Below are positions 8,993 through 41,960 of a stretch of DNA of 48,634 bases, one piece after another. The notes under the pieces were generated by a model that saw only the letters and a list, made by a program, of their open reading frames with translations, did no database searches and had not been told where the DNA came from. A program made the position numbers and the translations under genes. Source of the DNA: a virus. The DNA lies in the IMG/VR virus record IMGVR_UViG_3300032893_000077, positions 1-48,634 of that record. One strand, written 5' to 3'. Numbering within the stretch: the first letter of the stretch is position 1; every line of letters begins with the position of its first letter.

Positions 8993-9519
8993 ACGGCTAC
9001 GGCTACGGCTACGGCGACGGCGACGGCTACGGCTCCGGCTCCGGCGCCGGCGACGGCTACGGCTACGGCTACGGCTACGGCAACGGCTACGGCAACGGCT
9101 ACGGCTACGGCTACGGCGACGGTGACGGCGACGGCGACGGCTACGGCGACGGTGACGGCTACGGCGACGGCGACGGTGACGGCTATTGGGCACTCGTTCT
9201 TAGTTCATTCGTACCGACTCAACGGGCGAAAACACCAGAAAATTGCAAGCTGGCCTTCTGGCGCTCAGCTGCCGATGGTCGTCCCGCAAATGGCGGCACT
9301 GGCGGGCCGCGTAAAGTCGGGAGCGTGGAAGAGATTTCTGGTCCCCTCGAAATCTGCACGAAGAACGCCCTGCATGGCACCTTGGATCCAAGTCGATGGA
9401 AAGGTGATCGTCTGTGGGTGGTCGCACTCTATCCGCCATTTGTCAATCAAGGAGACAAGTGGGCCTCGCTTAAGCGAGAAATCATCGCGGAGATCGTGCC
9501 TAATCCATTCAAGGAATAG
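8968..9519 (+). CDS. DUF7666-like protein with Gly-Tyr/Asp repeat N-terminus
   Basis: 183 aa. Residues 10-73 are a 32-unit dipeptide tract (GY, GD, GN, GS, GA), expected to be disordered and aromatic/acidic. The folded C-terminal domain carries KLAFWRSAADGRP, NALHGTL, KGDRLWVVAL and DKWASLKREI, which match a domain I associate with the DUF7666 family, of unknown function. The start may be ATG 8968, overlapping the previous gene by 25 bases, or GTG 8990. The tract resembles repeat linkers that form condensates or sample surfaces, which is speculation. Confidence 0.65.
   Translation: MGNNNLEVNGYGYGYGDGDGYGSGSGAGDGYGYGYGYGNGYGNGYGYGYGDGDGDGDGYGDGDGYGDGDGDGYWALVLSSFVPTQRAKTPENCKLAFWRSAADGRPANGGTGGPRKVGSVEEISGPLEICTKNALHGTLDPSRWKGDRLWVVALYPPFVNQGDKWASLKREIIAEIVPNPFKE
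8995..9186 (+). repeat. Hexanucleotide tandem repeat, 32 units
   Basis: Units of GGC or GGT plus NAC/GAC/TCC-type codons (mainly GGCTAC and GGCGAC) repeat in frame for 192 bases without a break. The array should be prone to slippage in steps of six bases, which would change the length of the Gly-rich segment without shifting the frame. Confidence 0.95.
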
Positions 9520-11107: not shown

Positions 11108-11423
11108 AGCGTTCCGCGTAGGCAACATCCCAAGTGCTCGCACCCTCATACACGATGTGCCCGAGGTGGAAGTGCATCGCGACCTGAACCGGCGTGAAGC
11201 CGTCCGCTGGATGATACTCGAAGAACGCGATCACTAATCTCTGAACGAAGTCGTTCCATCGCTCATCGACCAGGGGCGATAGGCGCAGTCTGCCAGCCCA
11301 ATCGAAGACCCAGGATGGATGAACCTGCCATAGACCTATCGCCCGGCCGTCATCGCCCCACGCAAAAGCGTCGCCGCCCGATTCTACGAGCATTAGCTTG
11401 TGGGTGAACTCGCTACTGGTCAA
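11085..11423 (-). CDS. Lysozyme/lytic transglycosylase-like endolysin
   Basis: Peptidoglycan-degrading enzyme. The catalytic Glu is probably in LVESGGDAFAWGDD near residues 12-25, followed by GLWQVHP, the Gly-Xaa-Trp-Gln signature of goose-type and SLT folds, and a His-rich end. 112 aa is short for the family. The start is uncertain: a TTG at 11423 overlaps the upstream TGA (TTGA), and an internal ATG 30 bases downstream would cut close to the catalytic Glu. It is the last gene of the lysis cassette. Confidence 0.7.
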   Translation of the reverse strand: MTSSEFTHKLMLVESGGDAFAWGDDGRAIGLWQVHPSWVFDWAGRLRLSPLVDERWNDFVQRLVIAFFEYHPADGFTPVQVAMHFHLGHIVYEGASTWDVAYAERFMAASVA

Positions 11424-11752
11424 TGGATTACGCTCGCGGGAGGCGAGGCGACCACCACCGTCGATTGCGGTGGCTGCGTGCAATTCAGAGAACCTGAGTC
11501 AGCGCCAAAGACGGGGAAATACTCGTACGACATTGTGGCGCTCGTGCCGGCGGGAGCAGCCGCGCCTTCCTTGGCCGCGAACTTCGCCCCCTGAGCCGCG
11601 GCACCCAGCATCGAGAGCGCCGTGTTGCCCACGGTACTGCCTGAGAGCGCGAATCCCACGCCCGTACTCGTATCGGGACAGGTTGTGGTCAGGGTAATCT
11701 TCGCGCATCCCGCGAGCCCAATCGCCAACACCACCACTGCTATTCTTCGCAT
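11420..11752 (-). CDS. Lipoprotein (outer-membrane spanin candidate)
   Basis: 110 aa with an N-terminal lipobox, VVLAIGLAGC, so Cys15 would be lipidated after signal peptidase II. The mature part is Ala/Gly/Thr-rich. Position in the lysis cassette suggests the outer-membrane half of a spanin pair with the gene at 13867-14175, but separation of the two genes is unusual. Start ATG overlaps the previous TAA (TAATG) and follows GGAG. Confidence 0.65.
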   Translation of the reverse strand: MRRIAVVVLAIGLAGCAKITLTTTCPDTSTGVGFALSGSTVGNTALSMLGAAAQGAKFAAKEGAAAPAGTSATMSYEYFPVFGADSGSLNCTQPPQSTVVVASPPASVIH

Positions 11753-12542: not shown

Positions 12543-13343
12543 TCAGATCGCCTGTAGCACCCAAAAATCGCTGGAGAACTTGTCGAGGTCATACGGCGCG
12601 TAAAAATAACCGTTAATCCCCCAGTCGGCTCCCCACGAATTCCTGACCTTGTAGTAGCCGCCGCTCGGATGCGGCGCCAGCACCGCCTTGTTGGGCAGCG
12701 GCCGCGGGAGCAGCGCGTTGTCGATGTAACCCACCCGCGCGACCGCATGACCGCCAACGATCTTCTCACCCGCCGTCGGCATCGGCATCAACCCGGTAAG
12801 CGCGACCGTCTGCCCCTCGAACGACTCGTAGACGGTAAACCCGAATCCCACCGGGAACCCCGAAGCGAGCGCCGCCTTGATTGCAGCCCGATTCGGATCC
12901 ACCGCGCGATACTGGAGCGACCGCTCCGCCTTCGCATCGGCGAAACACTGCGCAGTGGGTTCGACGGTGAGCTTGCTCAGATCATACGGCCATTCCGTCT
13001 CCGGTATCGTCCCGATCGTAGCGAGCACTTTCAAGGCATCGCGGCATTGAGCGCCCGAATCATAATCGGTGCTGTCCTCGAGCACCCGCTCATTCCAGTA
13101 CAGGAACAAGCGCGAGGGCACGGCGCGGTCGCTGAATGCTTCTTTGTACGCGCAGAACTGCCAGAGATAGGCACCCATGTTCGCGGTACAGCTACCGGCC
13201 TGTCCTTGGTCGTAAACCGGCGGGGAGAGTCCTTCAAGGTCTACTTCGGCGGGTAATACGGCGGCAGGCAGCACCAACTTGTAGTCGCGATGGTCGGGGA
13301 GCTGGGGACGCCAGCCATAACCAGCCATTTTGCGTGGGTTCAT
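12543..13343 (-). CDS. Papain-like (C1 family) cysteine peptidase
   Basis: 266 aa. All catalytic positions are visible: Gln46 and Cys52 in YDQGQAGSCTA, His199 in GGHAVARVGY, and Asn235 in VRNSWGADWG. No signal peptide or long pro-domain is present; the enzyme starts almost directly with the mature fold. In the lysis region it could cut envelope peptides or proteins, or process a virion or secreted protein. Start ATG overlaps the stop of the small membrane protein (ATGA). Confidence 0.9.
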   Translation of the reverse strand: MNPRKMAGYGWRPQLPDHRDYKLVLPAAVLPAEVDLEGLSPPVYDQGQAGSCTANMGAYLWQFCAYKEAFSDRAVPSRLFLYWNERVLEDSTDYDSGAQCRDALKVLATIGTIPETEWPYDLSKLTVEPTAQCFADAKAERSLQYRAVDPNRAAIKAALASGFPVGFGFTVYESFEGQTVALTGLMPMPTAGEKIVGGHAVARVGYIDNALLPRPLPNKAVLAPHPSGGYYKVRNSWGADWGINGYFYAPYDLDKFSSDFWVLQAI

Positions 13344-14175: not shown

Positions 14176-14291
14176 CCAGAACCCCTTTAGAAGCTCGTAG
14201 GGCCGATACGAATGTAGAATAATCGAGGGGCTAGGCATAGACGGGTTTTACCTACTTTCTGTTGCTCTATTCCCACAGGTGGCTAGCATCC

Positions 14292-14351
14292 TCAAGGACA
14301 TTCAGCAGGCACCGTGAAAATGGCGGTCGATGGAGATGTCCCCAGCACGCA
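14292..14351 (-). pseudogene. Orphan copy of a tail-gene C-terminus
   Basis: Twenty reverse-strand codons encode CVLGTSPSTAIFTVPAECP and a stop. They match the last residues of the gene ending at 14830 (CILGTSPSTAIFEVPACC) in 15 of 18 positions, although many third codon positions differ. The HNH gene lies between the two copies. The copy appears to be the displaced 3' end of a tail gene left by an insertion or exchange. Confidence 0.7.
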
Positions 14352-14393
14352 AGTCGTAGCATAATCACCAATGGGGTGGTACTCTGTATTCCT

Positions 14394-14864
14394 ATGCGTC
14401 GCACTGCCATCGAAAGATTCAATGCGTTCATTCAGAAAACCGACACATGCTGGTTTTGGACAGGCAACATCGACAAAGATGGTTATGGGAAATTCCGTTT
14501 CGGCCCTCGAAAGATGCCAGCTCATCGTTGGAGTTATGAACATTTTGTTGGACCCATACCGACCAAATATGAAATAGATCACACTTGTCATAACAGCGAC
14601 CCGTTTTGTCCAAGGGGAACTGCTTGTATGCATCGTAGGTGCGTCAATCCGGCGCATCTCGAAGCCGTATCTGGAGCGGAAAACAATGCTCGTCGAGGCC
14701 GTCGCATAAAGTTTTGCAAGCGCGGCCATATTTTCGATGAAAAGAACACCTACCTTGTTCCTTTGGGTCGCGAATGTCGAACTTGCGCGAACCAACGTTC
14801 AAAGGCGTGGCGTGTCAAACAACGCATGATTAACAGCACGCTGGCACCTCAAATATCGCAGTAG
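14394..14864 (+). CDS. HNH endonuclease (HNH_3 type), antisense insertion
   Basis: 156 aa, on the strand opposite the late genes. CWFWTGNIDKDGYGKF (about residues 19-34) and the AHRWSYEHFVGPIP strand lead to the EIDHTCHN catalytic core, then CVNPAHLEAV, with a C-terminal zinc knuckle (CKRGH ... CRTC). This is the order of phage homing HNH_3 enzymes. The 3' end overlaps the tail gene's last 35 bases. A TG-TACTCT extended -10 lies eight bases before the start and no ribosome site is seen. Confidence 0.85.
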   Translation: MRRTAIERFNAFIQKTDTCWFWTGNIDKDGYGKFRFGPRKMPAHRWSYEHFVGPIPTKYEIDHTCHNSDPFCPRGTACMHRRCVNPAHLEAVSGAENNARRGRRIKFCKRGHIFDEKNTYLVPLGRECRTCANQRSKAWRVKQRMINSTLAPQISQ

Positions 14865-16176
14865 ACGGGGAAGTCCCTAAGATGCAACTGCCGCCCCATA
14901 GTTGTGCGCCACTTGGACACACAGTCCTACCGCATGTAGTAGGCACGCCAGATGCACAGGAATCACCGCAGAAGCAGGGAGTCCCGGTCACACACACGCC
15001 CAACCCACTGGAATAAGGCTGTACGCAGCCGGGATTCGGGGTGGCTGTAGGGCCTGTCGTCGGAGTCGGGAATGGAGGCGGTACGGTCGGCGTCGGTACG
15101 GCGGTAAAGGTCGGTGTCGCCGTAGGAGCATTATAGGTCGGGGTGGCCGTCGCTACCGCTTGCGTCGGCGTCGAAGTCGGACTTCCACCGGAACAGGGGC
15201 ACGGACCCGATGGATTGCATCCATTGACATAAATCGTATCAGGGAAAGAGAACGAATTTATCAGGGTGCATTGCGCCAAACAGATCGGTGCCGGAGTCGC
15301 CCCTGCCGGATTGGCGGGTCCAAAGAAGCAAATCTGCTGCGCGTCGCACGTACTGGACGGGCACGCCGCACCTGTCGTCTGGGAGGCGCATCCGAACCCT
15401 ACGGCATTAAACCCCGGACTACAGAGCGGCACCGGAAGCCCTCCCAACATGAAACTCTGCAGAATGGACACGGAACTGCCCACTGACGCCGATGCCGTGA
15501 GGTGAGTGCTTAGAGCGGTAGTGGCGGCCGTAATCTTGTAGGTCGTCCCCATCGCCACTTCCTTGCCTGAATCCTGCTTTACCCCCGCCGCAGGCTGCGT
15601 AAAGCCGTTGGTGGCACCTGATGCGCTGGCGATGGTGCTGCCACCACTCTTGTCCAGAAACCCCGCCACAGCCACTTCCGTGACTTGAGACAAGGAGGCC
15701 GTCGTGCCGGCGCTCCAGGTCGTGCTCGAGCCGGCCGCGGTATTGGTAGCGACCGCATCAGGCAGGGCAACGAACAGGTTGCTGAACTCGTACATGTAGA
15801 CAACCTGTCCACAGGTGCCAGTCCCGGCATTGTCGGTGATGGTGATGGTGGTAGCCCCGGATGGGTGATTAGGGGACGTGAATACCGAAATGACCCCATT
15901 AGCTCCGCTCACCATGCCCTGCAGAACCCACGTACCACCATTGTTGTCGGAGACTAAAATGGGCACCGGATTGGTGCTGGAACCTGCCGCGCCCACCATC
16001 ATCACCCACGTATCCCCTGCGTTGGTAGGGGTGAATGACGAGGTAATACTGCCGCAGGTAGCGGTGGCGGTAGGGGATGCGGTTATGTAGGCGGGGGTAT
16101 CTGTGCTTCGTAAGAACGGGGCAAACGCCGCTATGAACAGGAGAGTCAGGAATAGCGGGATGAGATATTTGCGCAC
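14830..16176 (-). CDS. Secreted Cys-rich protein with Pro/Thr linker
   Basis: 448 aa, GTG start. Residues 1-22 are a signal peptide (basic RK, long Leu/Phe core). Next comes a beta-rich domain (about 30-245), a Cys-rich module (about 250-330), a linker of Pro-Thr-Ala repeats (about 333-380) and a second Cys-rich C-terminal domain ending ACC. Disulfides imply an extracytoplasmic fate. It is the last of four adjacent genes with signal peptides. It could be a phage-coded surface protein or a virion protein assembled after export. Its 3' end is repeated at 14292-14351. Confidence 0.65.
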   Translation of the reverse strand: MRKYLIPLFLTLLFIAAFAPFLRSTDTPAYITASPTATATCGSITSSFTPTNAGDTWVMMVGAAGSSTNPVPILVSDNNGGTWVLQGMVSGANGVISVFTSPNHPSGATTITITDNAGTGTCGQVVYMYEFSNLFVALPDAVATNTAAGSSTTWSAGTTASLSQVTEVAVAGFLDKSGGSTIASASGATNGFTQPAAGVKQDSGKEVAMGTTYKITAATTALSTHLTASASVGSSVSILQSFMLGGLPVPLCSPGFNAVGFGCASQTTGAACPSSTCDAQQICFFGPANPAGATPAPICLAQCTLINSFSFPDTIYVNGCNPSGPCPCSGGSPTSTPTQAVATATPTYNAPTATPTFTAVPTPTVPPPFPTPTTGPTATPNPGCVQPYSSGLGVCVTGTPCFCGDSCASGVPTTCGRTVCPSGAQLWGGSCILGTSPSTAIFEVPACC

Positions 16177-16180
16177 ACTA

Positions 16181-16723
16181 TTACGGGACGCATTCGTCGA
16201 TACGAATCAGGCTGGTCAGGGTTAGGTCGGGACCGTTCGCGCACATACCAAAACCGGAGGGTAGGATGGTCGTTCCCTGAAGGCCGCAGCCATACCCCTT
16301 GGGCGAAGGAAGATCGCAAAGGGTGGACATGGAGGGCATCCAGTGCGTGTGGTCAGGTCTGGAGATATGTCCCTCGGACTTTGGAGCGATATTCCAACAC
16401 TGGCCATCTAAACAGAGCATCTCGGTATTCTTGGGATTATGATTCTGTACCGATACCGCGATGTCGAAGTGACAGACATAGATGTTCGGGTCCGAGTCGG
16501 GGCTTGTGATGCCCGCCGGAGGCACCCAAAGGTAGTTCGTCGTGCAATTCTGCCCAGGGCCCATATTGGGCTGGACGGGAATTTTCTCGCCCGCTCCGGC
16601 GTCGCATTCACCAACCATCACGCCATGCGTAGACGCCAAGAATGGGCCGCCGTGGACGCAGGTGGTCTGCGGATGCCCCGTTGCCAACGCAGAAAGAAAC
16701 GCAAGAATTACCAGATGGCTCAT
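16181..16723 (-). CDS. Secreted Cys-containing protein, 180 aa
   Basis: Start at 16723, overlapping the tailspike stop (ATGA). Residues 1-17 (MSHLVILAFLSALATG) form a short signal peptide. The mature protein has about ten Cys residues and HTHW/Trp motifs but no domain I know. It belongs to the coupled group of exported proteins downstream of the adaptor gene. Confidence 0.6.
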   Translation of the reverse strand: MSHLVILAFLSALATGHPQTTCVHGGPFLASTHGVMVGECDAGAGEKIPVQPNMGPGQNCTTNYLWVPPAGITSPDSDPNIYVCHFDIAVSVQNHNPKNTEMLCLDGQCWNIAPKSEGHISRPDHTHWMPSMSTLCDLPSPKGYGCGLQGTTILPSGFGMCANGPDLTLTSLIRIDECVP

Positions 16724-19239
16724 CGCATCTGCTGCCAATTGATGAAGTGCCCCGGGACACCGACTGCAATTACATAATCGGCCACCGAGCTGCAGCCGAC
16801 AGGCCCCGCAGTCTGTGTGTTGCCGCCACCTGAGCCGAGGTCTTGGCAGAAAATCTCCCCGCCTCCGTTAACGCAAGGCGCATAGATTAGCGCCACTCCA
16901 TCGGACGCGCCGAGCGCCACGTTGAATCCTGAGCAAGCGTTATGGCCGTTCAGGTCCAAAGTAAAGCCCGAGCCCGAAGGCGCGACGATCGACACCATGC
17001 CCAGTGCATTCACGCCCGACCCGGTGACATGCGTATCGCAAACGGATTGCGGTCCGGCGACAGCCGCGCCGGTGCCGGGACAGCCGTTGGGAGCGGGGCT
17101 ATTAGCGACCAGATTCACGCACCAAGTATCGTTGAAATCACAATCAAACGTGTTGTTCATGAACGTTTGCGCCCAGACGTTCTCGACCGTGTAGAGAGGT
17201 CCGCTGGTAAAGCCCGCAGGGTCGATATGGAAGGTGTTATCGAAGACATTCAGCGCCCCGCCGCTGGTGTTGTCATCGAACGACACCACAGCTCCAGTGG
17301 TCGGATTGCCGGTGTCCTGAATCTCCCCGTAGAAGTTGGAATGTCTCAACCCTCCCTGCACCCACATTCCCGAGTACCAGTGCTCCGCCACCAAATTCCG
17401 CATCTGGAGGTTGCTGTTACCCCCGCTCAATGCGATAGCGAACTTGGACACGTTGGTGTTCGGATCGCTCGGATTGACGTTGAGGGTGTAGAAATTGTCC
17501 GCGGTCAAGTACCACGCGAAATCCGCCCATAATCCGGGCCCGTAGCCGGTGCTTATGCCCAAATCGTTGTTGAGATGGACGTTCTGGGTAGACCCCGCGC
17601 TGGTCGAAACCAGAGTCTGATACAGCGAACTAGCCGTAGGCGGAGCCACCGGAGTCGCGATGGGCGACGGTAGCGTATAAGGCGTAGGAGACGCCGTAGG
17701 AGTAGGCGTCACGCTAGGCGTAGCCGTTGGACTGCCGCTTCCCGTAGGTGTCGGTGAGGGACGGGTTGGCGGCGCGGCCGGAGTCGGCACCGAAGTGGGC
17801 GCCGCGGTCGAAATAATGACCGGATTGTGGGTGGTGATGACCCAAGGAAAATCACCCGCCATCTGGTCATCATGTGGGTCGGTGACTTCAGCACCGTATA
17901 AATAGATTCCGACGGACAGTACGCCGCCCAAATTAGCTGTGGTCCCTTTGAAGTCCACCTGCACATGATCGATGGTTCCCTGAGCCGCCTGATTGGAAGT
18001 GGACCCGACTCGGCCCACCAATATGCCTCGTCTGCCCCCGTTGCCCGTGTAGGTCGCCCCTGAAATCTGGGACGAGATGAGGAGGTCGTGAATGTGATAG
18101 TAGCTGCTACCTGCCAAGTCCAAGGCATAGTAGGTGGAACCTGCGTCGTTGCAGATGACACTCGGTCCCAGCCCCATCCCCTGTGGCCATCCACCGAAAG
18201 ACAGCCCCTGGAGCATGGTCATATCCAAAGAGGTATGAATCCGGCAGCAGAGATTGGCCGGTGGAGGCACCAATATCGGACGGATACAGGGAGTTTCGCT
18301 TGAATACCCCGTTCCAGCCCCCGAGGACGGGCAGGCAGCGTCAATGGCGTTCATTATGGCGGTGGAATCATCGGTCTTTCCATCGCACTTGGCGCCGTAA
18401 TCCATGATGTTGATCAGACCTGCACTGGACGTGGCCCCGCACATGAGTCGTAGATCAGCCACATTGGTGATGGACCCTCCCGAGGTCGTCACCTGCATCA
18501 GCAACTGGGCGTCCGCCGGCATGGTGGGTCTTGAAGCATCGATAGAATCAATAAGGTAATGGGTGCCTGTTACCCGCGTAAAATTAGCCAATCCCGAGTT
18601 GGAACCCGTGGTATTCTCGTCCATCGCCACCCAAGTAGTGGAACTGTCTTGAAAGACGATGGCGTTACCTCCCGGGCAATCGGAGCCTCCCGTAGGGCCT
18701 GTTACCGAAGAAAGCCCGCAAGTGGAGCGGTAGCCAAAATTATAGGCCACGCAAGCCGTCGCGAACGTCATAGTAAGCCCGGAAGTGGTGGTCCCCAGGC
18801 ATGAGTTCGGATTGGCGGTTCCGGCGGGTTGTATGACGTTGGAGACGCAATTCGCGCCGCCTAATTCCTTGTAGCGGGAGGCATCCTCACCGGAGAGCGA
18901 ATTGTAGAGCTGCCCCGGGTACTGGGAGCCGCCGAAAGCCGAGCTTTGCGGATTGACGGCATTCAGTACATTGGCGACGTTGGAGTCATCGAATCCGCCC
19001 CGGTTATCGCCAAGCATGGACCCCTTGCCGAACGGCTGCGGTCCCCCGAAGGCATTGGGCGAGGACCGTGGCCCCGGCGTTCCCACTCCAGTCGGGGTTG
19101 CCGTCAAAGTAGGTGTGGCAGTCGCGGTCGCCGTAGCGGTCGCGGTAGGCGTCGGCGTTGCCACCTGCGCATGGCTTGTTCTCGCCACCAGCAGCAGCAC
19201 CGCGATCGCGAACCCCAGTGATAGCAATGCCTGCTTCAT
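16720..19239 (-). CDS. Beta-helix tailspike-like protein with signal peptide
   Basis: 839 aa. Residues 1-24 form a canonical signal peptide ending SHA|Q, then a Pro/Thr/Ala repeat linker. After a Cys-containing domain, MDYGAKCDGKTDD at about 279-291 marks a pectate-lyase-type right-handed beta helix, as in capsule-degrading tailspikes. A second Pro/Thr linker interrupts the helix region near residues 490-550. A Sec signal on a tailspike is unexpected because virion proteins normally assemble in the cytoplasm. It may instead be a released polysaccharide depolymerase. Start 19239 overlaps the upstream stop. Confidence 0.7.
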   Translation of the reverse strand: MKQALLSLGFAIAVLLLVARTSHAQVATPTPTATATATATATPTLTATPTGVGTPGPRSSPNAFGGPQPFGKGSMLGDNRGGFDDSNVANVLNAVNPQSSAFGGSQYPGQLYNSLSGEDASRYKELGGANCVSNVIQPAGTANPNSCLGTTTSGLTMTFATACVAYNFGYRSTCGLSSVTGPTGGSDCPGGNAIVFQDSSTTWVAMDENTTGSNSGLANFTRVTGTHYLIDSIDASRPTMPADAQLLMQVTTSGGSITNVADLRLMCGATSSAGLINIMDYGAKCDGKTDDSTAIMNAIDAACPSSGAGTGYSSETPCIRPILVPPPANLCCRIHTSLDMTMLQGLSFGGWPQGMGLGPSVICNDAGSTYYALDLAGSSYYHIHDLLISSQISGATYTGNGGRRGILVGRVGSTSNQAAQGTIDHVQVDFKGTTANLGGVLSVGIYLYGAEVTDPHDDQMAGDFPWVITTHNPVIISTAAPTSVPTPAAPPTRPSPTPTGSGSPTATPSVTPTPTASPTPYTLPSPIATPVAPPTASSLYQTLVSTSAGSTQNVHLNNDLGISTGYGPGLWADFAWYLTADNFYTLNVNPSDPNTNVSKFAIALSGGNSNLQMRNLVAEHWYSGMWVQGGLRHSNFYGEIQDTGNPTTGAVVSFDDNTSGGALNVFDNTFHIDPAGFTSGPLYTVENVWAQTFMNNTFDCDFNDTWCVNLVANSPAPNGCPGTGAAVAGPQSVCDTHVTGSGVNALGMVSIVAPSGSGFTLDLNGHNACSGFNVALGASDGVALIYAPCVNGGGEIFCQDLGSGGGNTQTAGPVGCSSVADYVIAVGVPGHFINWQQMR

Positions 19240-19694
19240 GGAAGGGTGGTAGGACTCACCTTCATGGACGCCGCCGTACACACCGCGTCCCATTCGGAAC
19301 TCAGAATTGACGCTCCACCGGCACTCGGGAAATTGATGACCGTATGCTGCCAGCCGGATCCACCCGTCGGCAGCGGGTATCCCCGGGCGAGGTTGGCATT
19401 GGGTGCCGGACTTGCCGCAGCGCATGGAGACGCTGACGCCGCCGGAAGCACGTAGCAGCTGTCGGTTCCTGCAGTCCCCCCATTCACGGCGAAGTCTAGA
19501 TAGAGAGTCTTCCCACCGGTCCCGTAGAGAGAGGTGGCGCAGGTAACGACCGCAACCGGCGTTGAGGTGCCAACGGAAATGGGCGTAGCCGATGCGGTGA
19601 CTCCCGGGGCATAACCGTTGTTCGTCCAGCTACGCGCTGTTGCCGCCACACAGAGCAGCAAGGCGACCGGAATGAATGGAATCAGTTTCTTCAT
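19236..19694 (-). CDS. Small secreted protein, 152 aa
   Basis: Residues 1-22 form a signal peptide (MKKLIPFIPVALLLCVAATARS). The mature chain is Ala/Ser/Gly/Thr-rich with four Cys and is predicted beta. It is the first of the four-gene exported group and overlaps the tailspike start by ATGA. Unknown family. Confidence 0.6.
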   Translation of the reverse strand: MKKLIPFIPVALLLCVAATARSWTNNGYAPGVTASATPISVGTSTPVAVVTCATSLYGTGGKTLYLDFAVNGGTAGTDSCYVLPAASASPCAAASPAPNANLARGYPLPTGGSGWQHTVINFPSAGGASILSSEWDAVCTAASMKVSPTTLP

Positions 19695-19697
19695 AGT

Positions 19698-20720
19698 TCA
19701 GTACCCAACTGCAAGAAAGTTCTCGAAGGCGGTCGTTATCGCATCATAATCAATCGGTCCCTGCCAGCCCATTCTGCGAATCGTCAGCTTCAAATCTTCT
19801 GGTCCCCGATCGTTGCGAATGGCTCTATTTATCTTGTTCTCGAATTTGCCTTCTTCCTGATTCGATACGTTGCGCCAGAAGGCTGCCTGATCCAAGTTCC
19901 CCATTCGTATCGCCCTGCCTGATTCGTTGCTGGCAAGGTAGGTCTTGGCGTAGGTGCGGATGATGTCCGAATCAATGGTCGGCGGCAGGTAATCCCCATA
20001 GCTCAATAGAGGCGGTGTCTGCCAGAAGGTGTAGTGAAGGGTCACCGAGTTGGACGGATAGGGGTATACCTCCACCATCTTGGGTATGCCGGTCATGTTC
20101 AGGTTGGAGTTCAGTTCCGCCCAATACTCGGGGTAGCTCGAGATGAGAAACCTAGATGGCACCATCCGGTTCATCTGGTCTTCGGAGATGCACCGAAGGG
20201 GTCTGAACACGAAATCGACCATGAACACGCCCAACTGTCTGGCTGTCGGGTCCAAGGGGAAATATCTCGGGATGATGAAATACGTCACGTTGGACTGCGT
20301 GAGTTGGTTGGTCCCCACCAGATACGAATTGTCGTAAGCGAAGGGAGTCTTCAGGATGAGATAACCCACCCCGTTCACTTCCTCGCCATAGGCGATCTCG
20401 TACCAAGTGATGCCTATCTGCGGCCTGAACCACAGCCCCGTCATCCCCTGCGGCCACTGATAGAACGGATTGGTCTGCAGGGCCGCGAGAGCCGTTGAAT
20501 CCAGTGTTATGGTCGGCGTATCGAGGGTGAGCGAGATGGTGCCCGCCTGCATGGGAGCAGGAAGGTAAAGCTGACCGAATTGTCTTAGATGGCGGAACTT
20601 GGCGCGAGCGCAGAGTTCCTGATATCCCTGTGCGCAGTATTGGGTGGCTAGCTCGTACCCCTTGTCGAGGCCGAGTTGTGCAACGGCGCTTCGAGCAATT
20701 GATTGTAGGGTTTCGGCCAC
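19698..20720 (-). CDS. Phage adaptor-like structural protein, 340 aa
   Basis: GTG start. The N-terminal helix (QSIARSAVAQLGLDKGYELATQYC) and the pattern of repeated Pro-rich beta strands, ending in long charged helices (AKTYLASNESGRAIRMGN), resemble head-to-tail adaptor proteins of podoviruses. It is longer than the two putative adaptors near terminase. It may contact the portal or tail-hub ring. Confidence 0.55.
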   Translation of the reverse strand: MAETLQSIARSAVAQLGLDKGYELATQYCAQGYQELCARAKFRHLRQFGQLYLPAPMQAGTISLTLDTPTITLDSTALAALQTNPFYQWPQGMTGLWFRPQIGITWYEIAYGEEVNGVGYLILKTPFAYDNSYLVGTNQLTQSNVTYFIIPRYFPLDPTARQLGVFMVDFVFRPLRCISEDQMNRMVPSRFLISSYPEYWAELNSNLNMTGIPKMVEVYPYPSNSVTLHYTFWQTPPLLSYGDYLPPTIDSDIIRTYAKTYLASNESGRAIRMGNLDQAAFWRNVSNQEEGKFENKINRAIRNDRGPEDLKLTIRRMGWQGPIDYDAITTAFENFLAVGY

Positions 20721-22353: not shown

Positions 22354-22974
22354 TTAACCTGCTACCCCTCGCGAGAGGTAGGTGATTGCGTTCATCAGAA
22401 TCTTGGGATCGTCCCGCAAGAAGCCGATCCCTCGATTGCATTGGTCACAAAGAACACCGCGATAGACCATCCGTTCATGGCAGTGGTCGATCTTCATCGG
22501 GCCTTCCTTACCACAGATTTCGCATGGTCCATTGAGTAATCGCGGATAGATTTCCTCGTACTTCTCCCGCGACAGATAGTGCTTGTGCGCACCATAACGC
22601 ATGAGTTTAAGAATCTGTTCCCTGCGCGGTCCCTCGCGTCGCTCTTGGTCGTATCGCTTGCGGTAATCCTTGTTGCGATGATGCCATTCTCGAACTCGCT
22701 GACGGTCGGGTTCCGGATTAGCGGCTCGTTTTTCGCGGCGACGCGGTTCGTATATTTCGCGGTAAAGGTCTTTATTGGCGTCATACCACGCCTTGCCCTT
22801 TTGCTTGTAGTATTCCTTGTTTGCCGCATACTTCGCTCGACTTCGAGCCCGCTCTTTTTCTAGATGTTGCGCACGCCATTCACGTAGATAAGCATGCTTG
22901 GCATCCATCAATTCCGGATCGTTCTTTAGTCTCTCCCACTCAGCTTTGTAGTCACGGTCAGTTCTTTTTTCCAT
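22354..22974 (-). CDS. Endonuclease VII-like HNH enzyme 1
   Basis: 206 aa. A Lys/Arg/Tyr-rich N-terminal region (about 1-130) with repeated helix motifs (YYKQKGKAWYDANKD) probably grips DNA. The C-terminal His-Me finger has CEIC, MKIDHCHE, RGVLCDQCNRGIG and DDPKIL, as in recombination endonuclease VII. It has its own leaderless-type promoter (22981-23009) and sits just downstream of the capsid gene, a classic homing location. Confidence 0.85.
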   Translation of the reverse strand: MEKRTDRDYKAEWERLKNDPELMDAKHAYLREWRAQHLEKERARSRAKYAANKEYYKQKGKAWYDANKDLYREIYEPRRREKRAANPEPDRQRVREWHHRNKDYRKRYDQERREGPRREQILKLMRYGAHKHYLSREKYEEIYPRLLNGPCEICGKEGPMKIDHCHERMVYRGVLCDQCNRGIGFLRDDPKILMNAITYLSRGVAG

Positions 22975-23013: not shown

Positions 23014-23922
23014 CTAAAATCCCAATGTACTGCCATATGCCCAGCGCCAGTCCCCCAGCCTCGTGGCGAACCTTTGATATACCGTGAAGTCAGCCGCCTC
23101 TATGAAGGGGTCGTCAAAGCTCCTGCTACGCGGGCGGTCGCGCCACATGAATTCGGCGTCTGACTGATCCATCGGCGCCAGCAGGAACCAGTCCTGAGTG
23201 CGGGTCAGGTAACGAATGATGCCCCAATCCAACCCATCGTTGAGTAGGGCGTTCATGTCGTTGTCGGCGGTCTGTGTCTTGCCTGAGGAACCGAGCAGTT
23301 CACGAGCCAGATAGCGGTTCGCCGGATTGATGCCCAGTCTGGTCGCTGCAACGTCCTGCGGGCGGCTACGGTCGTCGTTCAGGTTGTCGAAGTTGATCTG
23401 TCCTGCCTGAATGCCGGTCTGACTGAGTGCGATGTCAGGGGTGGGCCGGTTCACCTGTGTGGTGCCATCCAGGTCGGGATGCGGAGCGGCCGCGTTGGTG
23501 ATGAGCGGCACGTTGTCGTATCCGGTGTTCACGGAAAAGGCGTTGTTGAGCATGGAGAACGCCTGCACTTCCTGCCGGAGCCGGTTGGAGCGGCCCATGT
23601 CGCCCCACATCTCCCCCATCACACCGTATTTGTCGTCACGCCACATTTCCCATGTGACCGAGAACAACTGCCCGTAGGGAGTAGCGGTCACTTGGAAGGA
23701 CGACCCGATGATGGGCAAGTCCTGCGGGAACTGCTGGCCTTCCGGCTTGACGTACTGGATGCCCATTCCCGAAATCTTCTCGGAGATGTACGGGTTGGTA
23801 TCCATGTCAACGGCCTTGAACCACTCCGGCCAGAGACGTCTGTACTCTTTCCCGGTATTGACGAGGAAGGTTTGGAAGCGGGTACTCAGGAGGTCCGCGA
23901 ACGCAGACGTTACAGCAGGCAT
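23014..23922 (-). CDS. Major capsid protein (HK97-fold type)
   Basis: 302 aa. The N-terminal helix, the GMGIQYVKPEGQQFP segment, the aromatic WEMWRDDKYGVM spine-helix region and the NRYLARELLG P-domain-like part fit an HK97-fold capsid protein without a protease-cleaved delta domain. Two endonuclease genes flank it. Its ribosome site GGGAGT lies in the last codons of the upstream endonuclease. Confidence 0.85.
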   Translation of the reverse strand: MPAVTSAFADLLSTRFQTFLVNTGKEYRRLWPEWFKAVDMDTNPYISEKISGMGIQYVKPEGQQFPQDLPIIGSSFQVTATPYGQLFSVTWEMWRDDKYGVMGEMWGDMGRSNRLRQEVQAFSMLNNAFSVNTGYDNVPLITNAAAPHPDLDGTTQVNRPTPDIALSQTGIQAGQINFDNLNDDRSRPQDVAATRLGINPANRYLARELLGSSGKTQTADNDMNALLNDGLDWGIIRYLTRTQDWFLLAPMDQSDAEFMWRDRPRSRSFDDPFIEAADFTVYQRFATRLGDWRWAYGSTLGF

Positions 23923-23925
23923 ATT

Positions 23926-24504
23926 CTAACTCCCATCGAGATATTTAATTGCTGCCGCGAGTAACTCTGTGTTATCGCGGAAATGACCAATGCCGAAGTT
24001 GCAATGTCGGCACAATAAACCACGAAATTTACCAGTTGCGTGATTGTGGTCTGGATACATCTGTCCAGTGATTCCACAAATCTGGCATGGACCTGTCTTG
24101 AGACGCGCGTAAACGTCACGTGCTTGTTCGTCGGTGAGTCCGTAGTTATAACGCAAGCGGCTGTGTGGGTGCCGCTGCCGGTACTTTCGCGAATATTCTC
24201 GCTGATAGTTGGCAACGTGCTCGGGATGCGCCTCGCGCCATTTACGAGTTTGCTCGCGCGCGTTAGCACGTACCCACTCATCGCCTTTTTTAGCGCGCCA
24301 TCGTCGAAGATTCTCGCGATATACTTCGCGATTCTTTTTCTGATATGCAGCGCGCTGTTCTCTGCCACGACTGACTGCAGCTTTATATTTCTCAGGATTA
24401 GCTGCTCGCCATTTCTTGGCATATTCGCGATGGTATTTGCGCTTCCGTTCAAGTCTCTGTTCCGGAGTCTCGTTTACGTATTTCGGTTTTCTTCCTTTTG
24501 CCAT
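23926..24504 (-). CDS. Endonuclease VII-like HNH enzyme 2
   Basis: 192 aa. The first 110 residues are basic, Tyr/Trp-rich repeats (REYAKKWRAANPEKYKAA). The C-terminal catalytic part contains CQICG, YPDHNHATGKFRG and CRHCNFGIGHFRDN. It lies just upstream of the capsid gene. A perfect TATAAT six bases before the ATG predicts a leaderless transcript. Confidence 0.85.
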   Translation of the reverse strand: MAKGRKPKYVNETPEQRLERKRKYHREYAKKWRAANPEKYKAAVSRGREQRAAYQKKNREVYRENLRRWRAKKGDEWVRANAREQTRKWREAHPEHVANYQREYSRKYRQRHPHSRLRYNYGLTDEQARDVYARLKTGPCQICGITGQMYPDHNHATGKFRGLLCRHCNFGIGHFRDNTELLAAAIKYLDGS

Positions 24505-24510
24505 GTGACC

Positions 24511-24539
24511 ATTATAGTCAATGGCAAGTATGAAATCAC
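24511..24539 (-). promoter_or_regulatory. Promoter with perfect -10, leaderless type
   Basis: Reverse strand: TATAAT (24516-24511) followed by six bases and ATG 24504. The -35 at 17 bases is weak (GTGATT, 24539-24534). It probably serves the endonuclease gene and may add transcription of the capsid gene behind it. Confidence 0.6.
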
Positions 24540-26800: not shown

Positions 26801-27274
26801 CTACTTTACAGCAAAGAGCATTAACGGATGCTTGTACGCTTTGTCAATAGGGATGCGCACGTCCCGTAAATATTTGGCGGCCTTACGAAGCCACTTTGGA
26901 TTGTCACAAAACTGCCCCAGTCCGTGATTACATCGCTGACAGAGTAAACCCCTAACCTCGTCGGTCTTATGGTCGTGGTCGATGTAAAATCCTTGATGGC
27001 GTCCATCCATAACGAAACGCACTTCACAGATGGCGCAGCGATGACGTTGCTTAACAAGCAATTCCTCGACTTCCGCCCTGTCCAACCCGTATTCCCGTTG
27101 CCAGATCATCTGCCTGAAATATTCGGGATGGTTTGCTCTCCATTCGCGTTGCCATTGTCGATTTTTCTCACGACAGCAGGTTTTACACCATGATTGCAGC
27201 CGGTCCTTCGTCTGTTTATTCGGGCCGAATTCGGTCAAGGGTTGGACTTTCTTGCAGCGCGAGCACGGTTTCAT
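26801..27274 (-). CDS. Endonuclease VII-like HNH enzyme 3
   Basis: 157 aa. It has an N-terminal zinc ribbon (CSRCKK near 4-9, CKTCC near 30-34) and a basic Trp-rich linker. The catalytic His-Me finger follows: CAIC, FYIDHDHKTDEVRG, CQRCNHGLGQFCDN. The ATG 27274 overlaps the preceding stop (ATGA), so an upstream TTG at 27283 is rejected. Unlike the other two, it appears coupled to its neighbour rather than leaderless. Confidence 0.85.
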   Translation of the reverse strand: MKPCSRCKKVQPLTEFGPNKQTKDRLQSWCKTCCREKNRQWQREWRANHPEYFRQMIWQREYGLDRAEVEELLVKQRHRCAICEVRFVMDGRHQGFYIDHDHKTDEVRGLLCQRCNHGLGQFCDNPKWLRKAAKYLRDVRIPIDKAYKHPLMLFAVK

Positions 27275-27447
27275 GGCTGGCAATTCTTCTCGTTATGATT
27301 GTCAATAAGGGCCTGATATGCAGCGCCCCTTTTCCACTTGAACTTGCGAAACTGCTGGCGGGACGGATACACACCGGCCTTTTCACAGGCCGCGCGGAAT
27401 ACCGGATCCGTTTTTGCCCGTTCTCTGTTCGTCAACCTCGTCTCCAT
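27271..27447 (-). CDS. 58-aa basic protein
   Basis: Starts at ATG 27447 inside the preceding gene (65-base overlap in another frame) and ends at TGA overlapping the endonuclease start. The sequence is Arg/Lys/Gln-rich with FRAACEKAGVYPSRQQFRKFKWKRG, compatible with a small DNA-binding helix bundle. A natural amino-acid pattern and tight coupling support it. Confidence 0.55.
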   Translation of the reverse strand: METRLTNRERAKTDPVFRAACEKAGVYPSRQQFRKFKWKRGAAYQALIDNHNEKNCQP

Positions 27448-30249: not shown

Positions 30250-30441
30250 CTACGCGCGAGGAGCCGGCATCTTTTTCGGATTAGACTGCATGCCTTTCTC
30301 GGAACCGAAGCCCTTTTTCAGATAGGGCGAATTCGGGATGGCGGCGCCGGCGTCGGTCTTGCCGTTGCCTCGGCTGGAATTGAATCGCTCCTGTGCGCTG
30401 ACTCGGCTTGTTTCAATTGAGCTGTTGCTCCCACGGGGCAT
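30250..30441 (-). CDS. 63-aa basic low-complexity protein
   Basis: ATG 30441 follows AGAGG. Ser/Arg/Gly/Lys-rich with the ending NPKKMPAPRA. It resembles the small basic proteins at 20.7-21.2 kb in size and composition. Its stop TAG is directly followed by the purine-rich ribosome site of the next gene. Confidence 0.55.
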   Translation of the reverse strand: MPRGSNSSIETSRVSAQERFNSSRGNGKTDAGAAIPNSPYLKKGFGSEKGMQSNPKKMPAPRA

Positions 30442-30500
30442 GTTATTTACCTCTAATTGCGAGTGTCTCGAAAACTCCCCATGAGATTTACGCCAGACGC

Positions 30501-30529: not shown

Positions 30530-30536
30530 GCGTCTC

Positions 30537-30725: not shown

Positions 30726-30729
30726 ACAG

Positions 30730-36856: not shown

Positions 36857-37053
36857 TCTTGCTGCTCCCCGTACCATAGCGGACCTTCGTCGATCTCCTT
36901 GAGTTTGTCCGCATCTATCGCGACCGACATCATTTGCACCCAACCCTTTCGCTTACGGTCGGTGCTGAGCTTACGGAAACCCAATGCTTTGTAATGCCAC
37001 CACATAGCTGCAGGTGCCCATTCCACGACTTCCGTCTTTAGGGCTTTCTTCAT
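36853..37053 (-). CDS. 66-aa basic hypothetical protein
   Basis: Trp- and Lys-rich (WWHYKALGFRKLSTDRKRKGW), ending WYGEQQE like the tail-hub protein's end. ATGA overlaps on both sides and the repeated start element upstream. Possibly a small virion or host-interaction protein; no family. Confidence 0.5.
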   Translation of the reverse strand: MKKALKTEVVEWAPAAMWWHYKALGFRKLSTDRKRKGWVQMMSVAIDADKLKEIDEGPLWYGEQQE

Positions 37054-39770
37054 TCCTGCTGTTCCCCGAGCCAGACATCGGCTGAGATGTTGTAAATTTC
37101 CACCCTGCCCGTCAAATTGCCGGTCAGCCGGACACCGTCGAACAACCTGCCTACCATCTTGGGCGCGAGCTCGTATGTGAATCGCCCAGACTTGGCGGGA
37201 AGGACGGGCAGGGTTCTCTCTACCCCATCAATGATGAGCGTAGGAGTCAGAACCTGCCCTACCGCCGACACATTTAGATTCGCCGCAATGTAGAGCCTCT
37301 GGGTCGTGAATTGAGCGCCCGGGTCGGGGAAATCCCCCGGACTCTGCACCTCAAACGCAATCGGGTTGGAACCATCCAGCAAGGTTCCCGGCTGCTCGAA
37401 TTGGTAGATGTTCTGCCCCCATGAGGCTTGTACCTCACCCGTCTGCTCATCGTGGTAGGCCGCCGTCATGACCGGACCCGGCACCCGCCAGATGAGTTCT
37501 CCCGATTTAAGGCCATCGTAGGCAAGGGCAAGAGTGAGCCGCTGCCCATCGGAAAACAGGATTTCGTCCTTGATGCGGGCGCTCCAGGTCGGAGGCGTCA
37601 GGTAAGACCATGCGGGGATGTTCTCTTCCATCTGCCCGCGGAGAATAGGGGAGATTTCAGGGAAGGCAATGAGCCTCGAGGAACCCCACGACAGGATCCT
37701 GATTCCATCGTGCGCCCAGTAGATAAGTCCTATCCCGTGTACTCGCGTCAACGTGTAGGGTTGCGTCGTTCCATGGGCACCCATGACGGCGACAAAAGCG
37801 ATCGATGGATACGTTCCTTGTGCGTAGAAAGCATGGTCTTGAGACAACGCCCACAGAACCCCGTCGTACTCCATCAGCTTCTGCATCGGGTCATTCTGAG
37901 ACGACACAAAATAGACCTGTCCTACTGATTCGGGGCGGCCGGGAGGCGATGCGTAGACGTTGCGCTCGTTCCCGGGGTAGGAATCCCGAGTCCAGAACAT
38001 GCTTCCCTGGAAAGGTCCATATGCATCTCCGTAGGTGATTAGAGGGGGGGCATTGTCCAGCAGAACCTCATCGTTGCCCAGAACCGGAACGGCGTTCAAG
38101 CCTTGTGTCTGCCAATTCACCAGGCCATCGGAAGTAATCAAGGGACCAATGTTTTGCCACGTAACCGTACCGTCTACGATGGTATCGCCGACAGACGGAA
38201 CGGAGAGCCAGTTGGGTTCGACTACTCCCGTCACGCCCGCACTTAGGGCCTTGAATGCCGAGTAATTGGCGGTCTTGGTTTGAGACGGGAGTAAAGTTTC
38301 CCCGGCTACATCGATGGGTTCCTTGGCCGCCCATGTAGTCGTCGGAATGTTCCAATTAGGCGGGGTATTGCCCGTCGTGCCACCGGATACCGTGAAGGCG
38401 TAGTACCCGTTCCCCTCATTGACGTAATAGGCGGGCAGAATGGTGACGTTCTTTACCCAGGGAGTCAGGATGAGTTCCATCGGGATAGATGAGGTCACGT
38501 CGGTGTAGGTGGTGGTGGTATTGTCGGGAATCTTATCCAGATAGAACAGCGCCGCCCCTCCCTCCTGCGTTCTCCACAGTTTACGATTCGTCACCTGCGG
38601 ATCGGAAGAAATCGGGACGTTGTAGAGGACTACCGGCTGTTCAGCGACATTCGAGATGACGAGAGGGGTGTCGTTGGGGTTGGAATCGTTCCCTGTGATG
38701 TCGTTGCCGTATGTCACCTGATACTGGAAGGTCGCGCCGCCTTGAAGGGCGATGGGCCCCGTTCCCAAGGGATACCCGCCGAACATGGTGAAATTGTCTA
38801 CATAAACAGGCGCATTCTGGGGGGGATTGCTGTCGGGGGGTAAATAGCCGCCTTGAATCCTGATGGCCTGCACCATGCTCCAATCGAGATTGAGATTGGT
38901 GCCGGTCCTGAGCCACTGGCTCTTGGCGATCGCTACTTGAAACCACGCATCGGCAGGCGCCGAGATGATGACCGCGGCATCGGCGGCGTGCTTGTTGGCC
39001 GTCGTGGGGACGACCTGAATTACCGCCGAGTAATAGTCCTTTTTGAACGACCCATCGTTCACGTCGAACAGGACCTCGAGCCAGATAGTCGTGGTCGGAT
39101 GCTTGCAGTTGAACCAGAGCGAGATGTAATCCGTGGTAAGCGAGATGATGTTGTCCGCATAAACCGCGAGATTCAGAGTGGACACCAGAGTCCACGTGAT
39201 GCTCCACGGACCTGCGGTAGGTGTAATCTTGAGACTCCCCGTACCCGCCTGAACGATGGTCGATTCGTTGGCTACCGAGCAATTAACTGGGGTCCAATTC
39301 GCCGCGGAACTATCGAAGGTATCGATGGTGGTGGTGTCGGTAGCCGCGGTGCGCGCCTGCATGCCGTCCAGAGGAGCCACGATGCCCCAATTGGACGTGG
39401 TGCCGTCAGGGGCAATCTTGAACGGGGTCTTTCCGCCCCCGAGGATGAACAAGTAGTCCTCCACTCCGGTGCCGGGAGGCATGGAATTGAAGGTTAGTTT
39501 GGAACCGTCAAAGCCGGACAGGAAGATGACCCCATTCTTGTAGAGATTGGTGCCGTCGTAGGCGTAGCGGTCGCCGCCCCAGTAGTAGAGCTGGATAGCC
39601 CCGATGTTGGGATAGAGGAGCGGAGAGCCCCATCTGGACATGATAGAAGTGGTCTGCTCTGGAGCCACGCCGGACGCTCTGCGCAGGCCCGCCAGACCCG
39701 TTTGCTCGCGACCGCCGGCAACGACCAAGCGACGGTCAAAGGATGAGAACGAAATTCGTTTCTGAGGCAT
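37050..39770 (-). CDS. Large tail-hub / nozzle-like structural protein, 906 aa
   Basis: No signal peptide. The N-terminus (FDRRLVVAGGREQTGLAGLRRASG) and repeated beta motifs with Trp-Gly/Tyr-Asp (YYWGGDRYAYDGTNLYKNG) suggest a beta-propeller-like hub, as in P22 gp10-type nozzle proteins, though much longer. A central part is carbohydrate-binding-module-like (FDSSAANWTPVNCSV). It lies between the tailspike and small inserts, fitting a tail knob component. Confidence 0.55.
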   Translation of the reverse strand: MPQKRISFSSFDRRLVVAGGREQTGLAGLRRASGVAPEQTTSIMSRWGSPLLYPNIGAIQLYYWGGDRYAYDGTNLYKNGVIFLSGFDGSKLTFNSMPPGTGVEDYLFILGGGKTPFKIAPDGTTSNWGIVAPLDGMQARTAATDTTTIDTFDSSAANWTPVNCSVANESTIVQAGTGSLKITPTAGPWSITWTLVSTLNLAVYADNIISLTTDYISLWFNCKHPTTTIWLEVLFDVNDGSFKKDYYSAVIQVVPTTANKHAADAAVIISAPADAWFQVAIAKSQWLRTGTNLNLDWSMVQAIRIQGGYLPPDSNPPQNAPVYVDNFTMFGGYPLGTGPIALQGGATFQYQVTYGNDITGNDSNPNDTPLVISNVAEQPVVLYNVPISSDPQVTNRKLWRTQEGGAALFYLDKIPDNTTTTYTDVTSSIPMELILTPWVKNVTILPAYYVNEGNGYYAFTVSGGTTGNTPPNWNIPTTTWAAKEPIDVAGETLLPSQTKTANYSAFKALSAGVTGVVEPNWLSVPSVGDTIVDGTVTWQNIGPLITSDGLVNWQTQGLNAVPVLGNDEVLLDNAPPLITYGDAYGPFQGSMFWTRDSYPGNERNVYASPPGRPESVGQVYFVSSQNDPMQKLMEYDGVLWALSQDHAFYAQGTYPSIAFVAVMGAHGTTQPYTLTRVHGIGLIYWAHDGIRILSWGSSRLIAFPEISPILRGQMEENIPAWSYLTPPTWSARIKDEILFSDGQRLTLALAYDGLKSGELIWRVPGPVMTAAYHDEQTGEVQASWGQNIYQFEQPGTLLDGSNPIAFEVQSPGDFPDPGAQFTTQRLYIAANLNVSAVGQVLTPTLIIDGVERTLPVLPAKSGRFTYELAPKMVGRLFDGVRLTGNLTGRVEIYNISADVWLGEQQE

Positions 39771-41960
39771 CTATCCACCCGCCGTCGTTGAATATACCAG
39801 ACGGCATTGCACATGTACGCCGCTCATATTGGCATTAGTCAAGAAGGATGAGCTGGCATTGCTCAAAAACTGAAGATGGTTGGTGCTCGTGATATATGCG
39901 ACCACATCGGTCGATAATCCTGGCGCCGCTATAGCGGCGACCGCGACGCCGCTGATCGCGGAAGGACCGGTAATCGAAATGCTCGCGGTATGGGTATCTG
40001 CGGTCGAAGGGTAAGTTATGTCCGCGTACAAAAATACCAGATTGGCAATTGCCGTGTAGGTGCAGCGTGTGTTCGTCAATGATAGACCGCCGCCGCTAAT
40101 ATCGGCTGGAGTCCAAGTATTGACGCCGTAATCCGAAATGTTGGACATCGCGGGTTGCGCACCCGAGAGGACCCCCGCCGAATTGATAGAATTGGCGAAG
40201 TTGTTGGCACCGAGCGTATTACCCGCAAGTGCAGCGGGAGCGCCAGACGTACTGGCCACCACCACGCCACTGATCGCCGCTCCAGTGACTTCGTTGCCCG
40301 TCGCACCATTCTTGTAATAGGGAATGTCGTATTGAGCGGAAGTATCTACGGTCCCGCTACCCGCACCCGCTCCAAACGACACCCATGCACCATTTTGTCG
40401 CGACACTAGACAACCGCTACCGCTCCCAGTCACAGGATTGGTATTAGGCGTCCCGTCAGACGCATAGACATGAGAACCATTTGCGACGGTGGGCAACGTT
40501 GCAACTGTGAACGGAGGACCATCAAGCAGGGTAACACTGGCGTTGAGTCCTGAATAATTAGTGGTGACGCCGCTGAAAAGATTTGGGCCGATAGTTCCAG
40601 TTGTCGCGCTGCTTACATTGATGCCAACCGAACCATTCTGGAACTCATTACCATCTACGATGATACTCAATACTCCCGGCATCGTAAGGGAGGTGGGAAC
40701 CCCATTGATAACATTACCCTGTATAGACACACCCGAAATCGATGCACCGCCACCACCGGCCACGCTGAACGCAATTCCGGCGGTTCCGCCACCCAGTATT
40801 TCATTGCCCTGAATGACAATCTGCGCCAATTGGGCACCCGACGCCCCAGTCTGGATGAGAATGCCAAAAGAACCACCCGACGGTAGCTCTATACTATTGT
40901 CTTGAATTAAAAAGACGCTGGTAACGCCAGACGCGGTGACGTTCGACACCGCAAGACCAGCGGTGCAGTTGGCGGTCAGAATCTTGTTGCCAATAAACTT
41001 AAGCCCGCCACCCGACAGCCAATTGAGCGGAGTGTTACTCGCGACACTTGAGTCGAAGAAATTACCGTAAACCGCCATGTCGCCGGAATCAATCGCGTTG
41101 GTGTTGTTGATGAGCAACCCATAGTTGACGAAGTTCAGGAAGGAATTGTTATTCGCCATCCAGGTGTTGGCTTTGAGAAAGGCGAGCTGATTCCATCCTT
41201 GTAAAAACTCGCAATCGTGGACAACGCTATTGCCGCTCTCAAATGCACCCGCAGTGGTGATGGTGAGCAGCGCACCAGAGACGGCAGCTACGTTACCCTC
41301 GATGGTCAGATCATGAACTTGCACCGACCCTTGGGCGATCGTGTCAAAGACAAGTCCATCGGCGGTGGTGGAATTGAGCGAAATGAGACTGACGTTCTTA
41401 CCGGCCCCACGAACAGCAAGAGAGCTAATAGCTGAAGCTGTGATAGCGCTGGAAATAATACAGGTGCCTGGGGGAAATTCCACGATCCCGCTCGCGCCAC
41501 AAGCGTTAAATGCCGCTTGCACTGCAGCAGTATCATCAGTGATGCCGTCGCATTTGGCGCCATAAGTCAGGACGTTAATGACTTTGTTCGGGTTGAGATA
41601 GACGAAGTTCGTCCCTGATGATGCTACTTCGGCGGCGTTAGCCGGATAGTAAGCTACGAAGGGCGTCACGCCAGTCTCCACGACGCCCGTAGAACCCGGG
41701 GGAATTGGTGTACCGCCACCCCCCGGTTGTCCCTGCGCCCCAGGATAGGTGGGCAACGTGAGTTGGTTCAGAGTCGCCGTATTGAGCGCCAACTGGTTTT
41801 GCGCCAAGCCGACAGCGGCATTCAACGCATTGATGTTCTGGTTGAGAATGTTGAAGTTGTTCTCAAGGTCGTAGATGAGCCGATTGCCCTGCTCCGTATC
41901 GACGGTAGGACCGGAGAACCTGCGAAACTGGTTGGGAGGCGTGGTCGGTAGAGTGGCCAT
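39771..41960 (-). CDS. Tailspike protein, pectate-lyase beta helix
   Basis: 729 aa without a signal peptide. Residues 20-65 form a coiled-coil head-binding region (NRLIYDLENNFNILNQNINALNAAV), then a Gly/Pro hinge. YGAKCDGITDD at 133-143 opens a long right-handed beta helix with many Asn/Gly/Ser turns, and a C-terminal beta domain follows. It would recognise or cut a host surface polysaccharide. Start ATG abuts the adaptor stop. Confidence 0.8.
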   Translation of the reverse strand: MATLPTTPPNQFRRFSGPTVDTEQGNRLIYDLENNFNILNQNINALNAAVGLAQNQLALNTATLNQLTLPTYPGAQGQPGGGGTPIPPGSTGVVETGVTPFVAYYPANAAEVASSGTNFVYLNPNKVINVLTYGAKCDGITDDTAAVQAAFNACGASGIVEFPPGTCIISSAITASAISSLAVRGAGKNVSLISLNSTTADGLVFDTIAQGSVQVHDLTIEGNVAAVSGALLTITTAGAFESGNSVVHDCEFLQGWNQLAFLKANTWMANNNSFLNFVNYGLLINNTNAIDSGDMAVYGNFFDSSVASNTPLNWLSGGGLKFIGNKILTANCTAGLAVSNVTASGVTSVFLIQDNSIELPSGGSFGILIQTGASGAQLAQIVIQGNEILGGGTAGIAFSVAGGGGASISGVSIQGNVINGVPTSLTMPGVLSIIVDGNEFQNGSVGINVSSATTGTIGPNLFSGVTTNYSGLNASVTLLDGPPFTVATLPTVANGSHVYASDGTPNTNPVTGSGSGCLVSRQNGAWVSFGAGAGSGTVDTSAQYDIPYYKNGATGNEVTGAAISGVVVASTSGAPAALAGNTLGANNFANSINSAGVLSGAQPAMSNISDYGVNTWTPADISGGGLSLTNTRCTYTAIANLVFLYADITYPSTADTHTASISITGPSAISGVAVAAIAAPGLSTDVVAYITSTNHLQFLSNASSSFLTNANMSGVHVQCRLVYSTTAGG

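Follow-up and report, generated by a model that had tools for sequence, protein, structure and literature searches.

A putative cassette of Sec-exported, fibre-like proteins in an uncultured clade of podovirus-like phages

The gene at 16720-19239 of the window (the whole stretch of DNA analysed, a virus record of 48,634 bases that is podovirus-like by gene content) probably encodes a late phage protein with a cleavable Sec signal, which would be one of several exported proteins resembling fibres or spikes whose genes form a conserved cassette in an uncultured clade of podovirus-like phages (Table 1). The best reading is that the cassette is clade-wide and that its Sec-exported, disulfide-bonded, fibre-like products would act at or beyond the envelope of the infected cell. 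For the protein itself, we lean slightly towards an exported, spike-like and glycan-directed protein that would act at the envelope or in the medium. The usual view is that fibres and spikes of tailed phages both fold and assemble inside the cytoplasm. If the reading is correct, some phages would use their host-recognition toolkit on the exterior of the infected cell, to remodel, guard or digest it; alternatively, part of the virion would be built outside the cytoplasm.

Table 1. Features of the window that bear on the putative exported cassette.
Feature	Position	Strand	Basis or remark
Predicted exported spike-like protein (main finding)	16720..19239	-	839 aa; ATGA overlap with upstream gene
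Signal peptide, residues 1-24, MKQALLSLGFAIAVLLLVARTSHA	19168..19239	-	Putative SPI cleavage between SHA and Q
Pro/Thr/Ala linker PTPTATATATATATPT, about residues 25-58	19066..19167	-	Direct reading
DDSN domain, residues 84-264, two invariant Cys	18448..18990	-	Alignment
Pectate-lyase-like start, residues 275-398, with YGAKCDGKTDD	18046..18417	-	PF12708, E 1.2e-5, below curated cut-off
Second Pro/Thr linker, in C-terminal part, about residues 478-538	17626..17808	-	Direct reading
Predicted exported small protein, upstream, MKKLIPFIPVALLLCVAATARS...	19236..19694	-	4 Cys after signal removal
Cys-rich protein, downstream, ATGA-coupled, MSHLVILAFLSALATG...	16181..16723	-	10 mature Cys
Predicted exported 448-aa protein, Pro/Thr linker, MRKYLIPLFLTLLFIAAFA...	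14830..16176	-	22 Cys; cleavage site uncertain
Small lipoprotein, LAGC box	11420..11752	-	Signal rule
Conserved connector-like gene anchoring the cassette	19698..20720	-	Homologues in 13 further contigs
Conserved 906-aa tail protein marking the second fibre slot	37050..39770	-	Role by position; no family match
Signal-less tailspike, second fibre slot	39771..41960	-	PHROG tail spike, E 7.6e-10

The reading frame is open to 19425, and the chosen start, the ATG at 19239, shares an ATGA with the stop codon of the upstream gene; the stop overlaps the ATG of the downstream gene in the same manner. A wrong start is disfavoured by the ATGA overlap and the independent starts of the relatives, and a signal that arises as an artefact of such a start was therefore set aside. 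The N-terminus comprises the n-region MKQ, a core (LLSLGFAIAVLLLV) of 14 uncharged residues with a mean hydropathy of 2.9, and the c-region RTSHA, which is followed by Q. It passes a home-made signal rule that asks for a positive n-region, an uncharged core and either an AXA site or a lipobox, and its features are of the Sec/SPI type, namely a hydrophobic core and an AXA-type site behind a positive n-region. The signal peptide ending in SHA, the Pro-Thr-Ala linker and the YGAKCDGKTDD block described in the initial annotation are all present. A lipobox cysteine is absent from the window copy, which has no lipid anchor, and the mature protein contains an even number of cysteines (20).

The rule accepts 4 of the 41 gene models in the window (16720-19239, 19236-19694, 14830-16176 and 11420-11752) and 30 of 496 spurious ORFs. 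The product of the downstream gene fails it, having a hydrophobic, uncharged N-terminus that amounts to a weak signal, and the small lipoprotein is possibly an outer-membrane spanin. The connector-like gene, which lacks a family match, is a putative adaptor by its position. Across six genomes, the positives concentrate in two fibre slots, whose limits were set with the pattern already in view (19 of 29 genes, compared with 13 of 268 elsewhere; Fisher p = 1e-14). A gene for a papain-like C1 protease (12543-13343, minus strand; PF00112) adjoins the exported cassette, and similar proteins are encoded in the equivalent place in G006 (30348-31166) and G007 (23687-24520).

Relatives were collected via the whole protein, the conserved DDSN domain, the connector and the tail protein; because an identical gene order recurs in independent contigs, a chimeric origin of the cluster was set aside. 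The DDSN family displays conserved predicted signals, lipoprotein versions, and modular and swappable C-terminal parts, and the exported proteins as a set show a predominance of even numbers of mature cysteines. An export signal stands in front of the domain (approximately 180 aa) in each of the ten phages that carry it. Four of these signals are of the Sec/SPI type (window, G002, G003 and G009) and five of the lipoprotein type, with a lipobox in G001, G006, G007 and L011 and an atypical, lipoprotein-like VFGC in L018, whose protein has the motif CxxVN...YxTG common to the lipobox relatives; the remaining one (L005) can be read as either type. Mean identity among the members is about 37% for the signals and about 60% for the domains, and the low value for the signals is as expected if they are preserved for their character rather than their letters. 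Both signal and domain are still present in a distant phage (G009), whose connector is only 34% identical. The C-terminal parts behind the domain differ between phages, and viral contigs contain no close relative of the one in the window protein. The domain has no match in Pfam, PHROGs, the PDB, cultured phages or a profile scan of genome contigs, its AlphaFold model is poor (pLDDT 36 for the domain alone), and a search of PHROGs and Pfam for a known virion-binding N-terminal domain gave no match at a meaningful level.

The lipoprotein forms in five relatives would agree with superinfection exclusion, whereby receptor-binding-like proteins at the envelope would sit on the receptor of the infected cell or block it; phage-encoded exported exclusion proteins are known (TP-J34 Ltp, P1 Sim and T5 Llp). 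However, the large fibre genes comprise up to about 12 kb per genome, far above the need of known exclusion proteins, which are small, and the window copy is not lipidated. This explanation is therefore improbable.

Independent support for export is provided by the parity of cysteines in the predicted mature proteins. Exported proteins of Gram-negative bacteria favour even cysteine numbers, which is thought to limit wrong disulfides (PMC7678975). An even count was found in 26 of 29 non-redundant mature exported proteins (binomial p = 1.5e-5) but only in 14 of the 29 with the signal left on, and the non-signal genes of the same genomes have 87 even and 92 odd counts; the p-values for parity are guides, given the non-independence of homologues and the manual choice of cut sites. 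Among the three exceptions (G003_25022, G007_713 and G006_lipo31316), the last turns even once its lipobox cysteine is omitted, as was done for the other lipoproteins, and an out-of-sample gene found afterwards (in L066) goes from seven to six cysteines upon signal removal. Cleavage of the signal, together with pairing of the cysteines in an oxidising compartment, would be expected to produce such parity. Cysteine content is also higher in the exported proteins (2.2%) than in the virion-type proteins of the window (0.6%; p = 6e-6). Besides its invariant pair, the DDSN alignment contains two further cysteines (in TCWVAMD and YLxDC) that G006, G007 and G009 possess as a pair, whereas the other five have neither; since G006 and G007 are near-identical, the coupled pair represents about two independent occurrences. 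The comparison of parity before and after signal removal would offer a cheap sequence test for exported phage proteins in any virome.

The signals in all ten DDSN relatives, the five lipoproteins and the parity that appears only after signal removal support the export of the window protein, as had been proposed initially. A tailspike without an export signal that assembles in the cytoplasm would not carry the signal that is present here. An ordinary virion tailspike, whose hydrophobic N-terminus would be a contact with virion or membrane rather than a working signal, could account for the tail-spike-like C-terminal segment. It is nevertheless very unlikely in view of the lipobox versions, the export-type c-regions, the parity pattern, and the cysteine richness and clustering of such genes.

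The exported genes vary in a modular fashion. Signal-bearing large genes (collagen-like, NHL-propeller and others) follow the connector in relatives with and without DDSN, and in those without it, other exported fibre-like genes occupy the equivalent slots. The matches of collagen-like sequences to tail-fibre PHROGs rest on Gly-X-Y repeats and were not accepted as homology. A second exported N-terminal domain (YGTCxGYQPGxGGDFC) is common to G001, G005, G006 and G008, where it precedes different bodies. Moreover, C-terminal modules are common to both slots, as exemplified by the slot protein of G003 and the DDSN protein of G006 (66%); G001_9563 and the slot protein of G002 share 64% over 47 residues. 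Between G006 and G007, two exported genes have been replaced, whereas identity is 93-99% for most of the core proteins and 97-99% for those of tail, portal, coat and terminase. At the level of sequence, such replacement of exported genes and sharing of modules is the behaviour of host-interaction genes. In the same two phages, a break near residue 805 divides the 906-aa tail protein (G006, C1:11660-15665; G007, C1:40803-44820), with the last 104 residues encoded by a second gene that also brings a new N-terminal part.

In the window, a signal-less spike occupies the slot before the 906-aa tail protein; signal-bearing fibre-like genes are found there in G002, G003 and L066, and G009 has the DDSN gene itself behind the connector gene located ahead of this slot. 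The assumption of the initial annotation that phage fibres lack export signals does not hold for this clade, although the signal rule confirmed that the spike of the window has none. The same observations are in favour of true receptor-binding fibres, which would be exported, oxidised in the periplasm, and attached to finished virions at or after lysis via the DDSN or YGTC domain. A conserved N-terminal domain with variable C-terminal modules is the architecture of tail fibres, the genes lie in tail and connector slots and are connector-coupled in several relatives, and no separate signal-less spike is seen in the second slot of G006, G007 and G008. On the other hand, the predicted lipidation of several relatives would tie the proteins to the membrane, the signal-less spike of the window could act as its receptor-binding protein, genes may be missing from the linear contigs, and we know of no precedent among tailed phages for exported fibres that join virions. 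We consider virion fibres of this kind unlikely, although they and superinfection exclusion are the main alternatives to the preferred reading. Marginally less likely still is a whole clade of tailed phages in which receptor-binding fibres leave by the host Sec system to fold oxidatively and, once disulfide-bonded, join the virion beyond the cytoplasm, at lysis or later.

The pectate-lyase-like segment of the exported protein and the signal-less spike are 28% identical over about 125 residues (E 2e-7). The earlier suggestion that the two proteins deliver one activity by two routes goes beyond what this likeness shows, and the spike has no match in eight relatives. The match to PF12708 (Rhamnogalacturonase A/epimerase) covers only 28 residues and scores 25.7 bits against a curated cut-off of 27, the AlphaFold model of the mature protein is poor (pLDDT 41), and no catalytic residues were recognised. 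Pro/Thr linkers and a pectate-lyase-like segment are also found in secreted polysaccharide enzymes, which would be compatible with auxiliary metabolic genes whose products would break down polysaccharide in the environment as food for the infected host. A relative encodes an exported protein (L043:4508-7225, minus strand; G006, 905 aa) with glycoside-hydrolase-looking motifs (GPNEPN and TETGWP, by eye) in its C-terminal half, but no family match supports the glycoside-hydrolase reading. An auxiliary metabolic role has very little probability, as no hydrolase family was matched and the genes lie in the tail module instead of with accessory genes and show the variability of host-range genes.

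In the preferred reading of an envelope- or medium-acting protein, host signal peptidase I would cleave the signal, and the protein would fold outside the cytoplasm with disulfide bonds. The DDSN domain would either remain at the envelope or present the variable C-terminal module there. More speculatively, the pectate-lyase-like module may bind or trim a glycan on the surface during late infection and lysis, which might free the progeny from the matrix, or mask and remove the receptor. The fibre-like slots argue against an envelope function in so far as they are equally expected of virion proteins.

The window phage is only distantly related to cultured phages, with matches restricted to the coat protein (approximately 28% identity) and the portal; the latter matches four uncultured records (23-25% identity). 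Neither the 906-aa tail protein nor the connector has a match in 50,697 phage records, two profile scans of genome contigs for a host (with the adaptor and the DDSN alignments) returned no relative, and the cultured relatives QDWS535 and CRP-902 contain no large signal-bearing genes by the home-made rule. Three endonuclease VII-like genes (PF02945, E 1e-15 to 3e-21) and one HNH gene (22354-22974, 23926-24504 and 26801-27283 on the minus strand; 14262-14864 on the plus strand) are situated between structural genes and resemble free-standing homing endonucleases. A 413-aa gene without a Pfam match (31000-32241, plus strand) lies on the opposite strand within the structural region, and similar proteins are encoded in varying orientation in G003, G006, G007 and G008. 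Near the terminase, a glycosyltransferase-like gene (PHROG) and a weakly Glyphos_transf-like gene (PF04464, just below cut-off) at 46043-47887 (minus strand) have a possible role in surface-glycan modification. A tandem array of the hexamer ACGGCT (8993-9185; 32 copies, 88% matches) forms a Gly-Tyr/Asp repeat ORF on the plus strand.

An exported fibre cassette of this kind was not found described in the open-access literature, to which the search was confined, but several known systems share individual traits. Sec-exported lysis proteins of phages include the endolysin Lys44 of an Oenococcus phage and RI of T4 (PMC6116005); they use the same host Sec export by a signal peptide, whereas the cassette consists of large fibre- or spike-like proteins, with several per genome. 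According to PMC10367356, phages of Porphyromonas gingivalis (proposed Nixviridae) have several genes of unknown function with general-secretion signals, and some apparent signals of capsid proteins are cut by prohead proteases, which calls for caution; compared by description, the features noted from that paper do not include an exported domain that is conserved while the fibre modules attached to it are exchanged.

TP-J34 Ltp and T5 Llp are likewise phage lipoproteins at the host envelope, but they are small, whereas the bodies of the five lipoprotein relatives found here are large and fibre-like; the window copy itself is not of the lipoprotein type. The window protein resembles the P22-type, right-handed beta-helix tailspikes and EPS depolymerases in its YGAKCDGKTDD block, its location in the tail module and its 28% identity to the phage's own spike, a likeness by sequence in which the Pfam match lies below the cut-off and the fold is putative. 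By contrast, its Sec signal, 20 mature cysteines, Pro/Thr linkers and unrelated conserved N-terminal domain set it apart from P22-type tailspikes.
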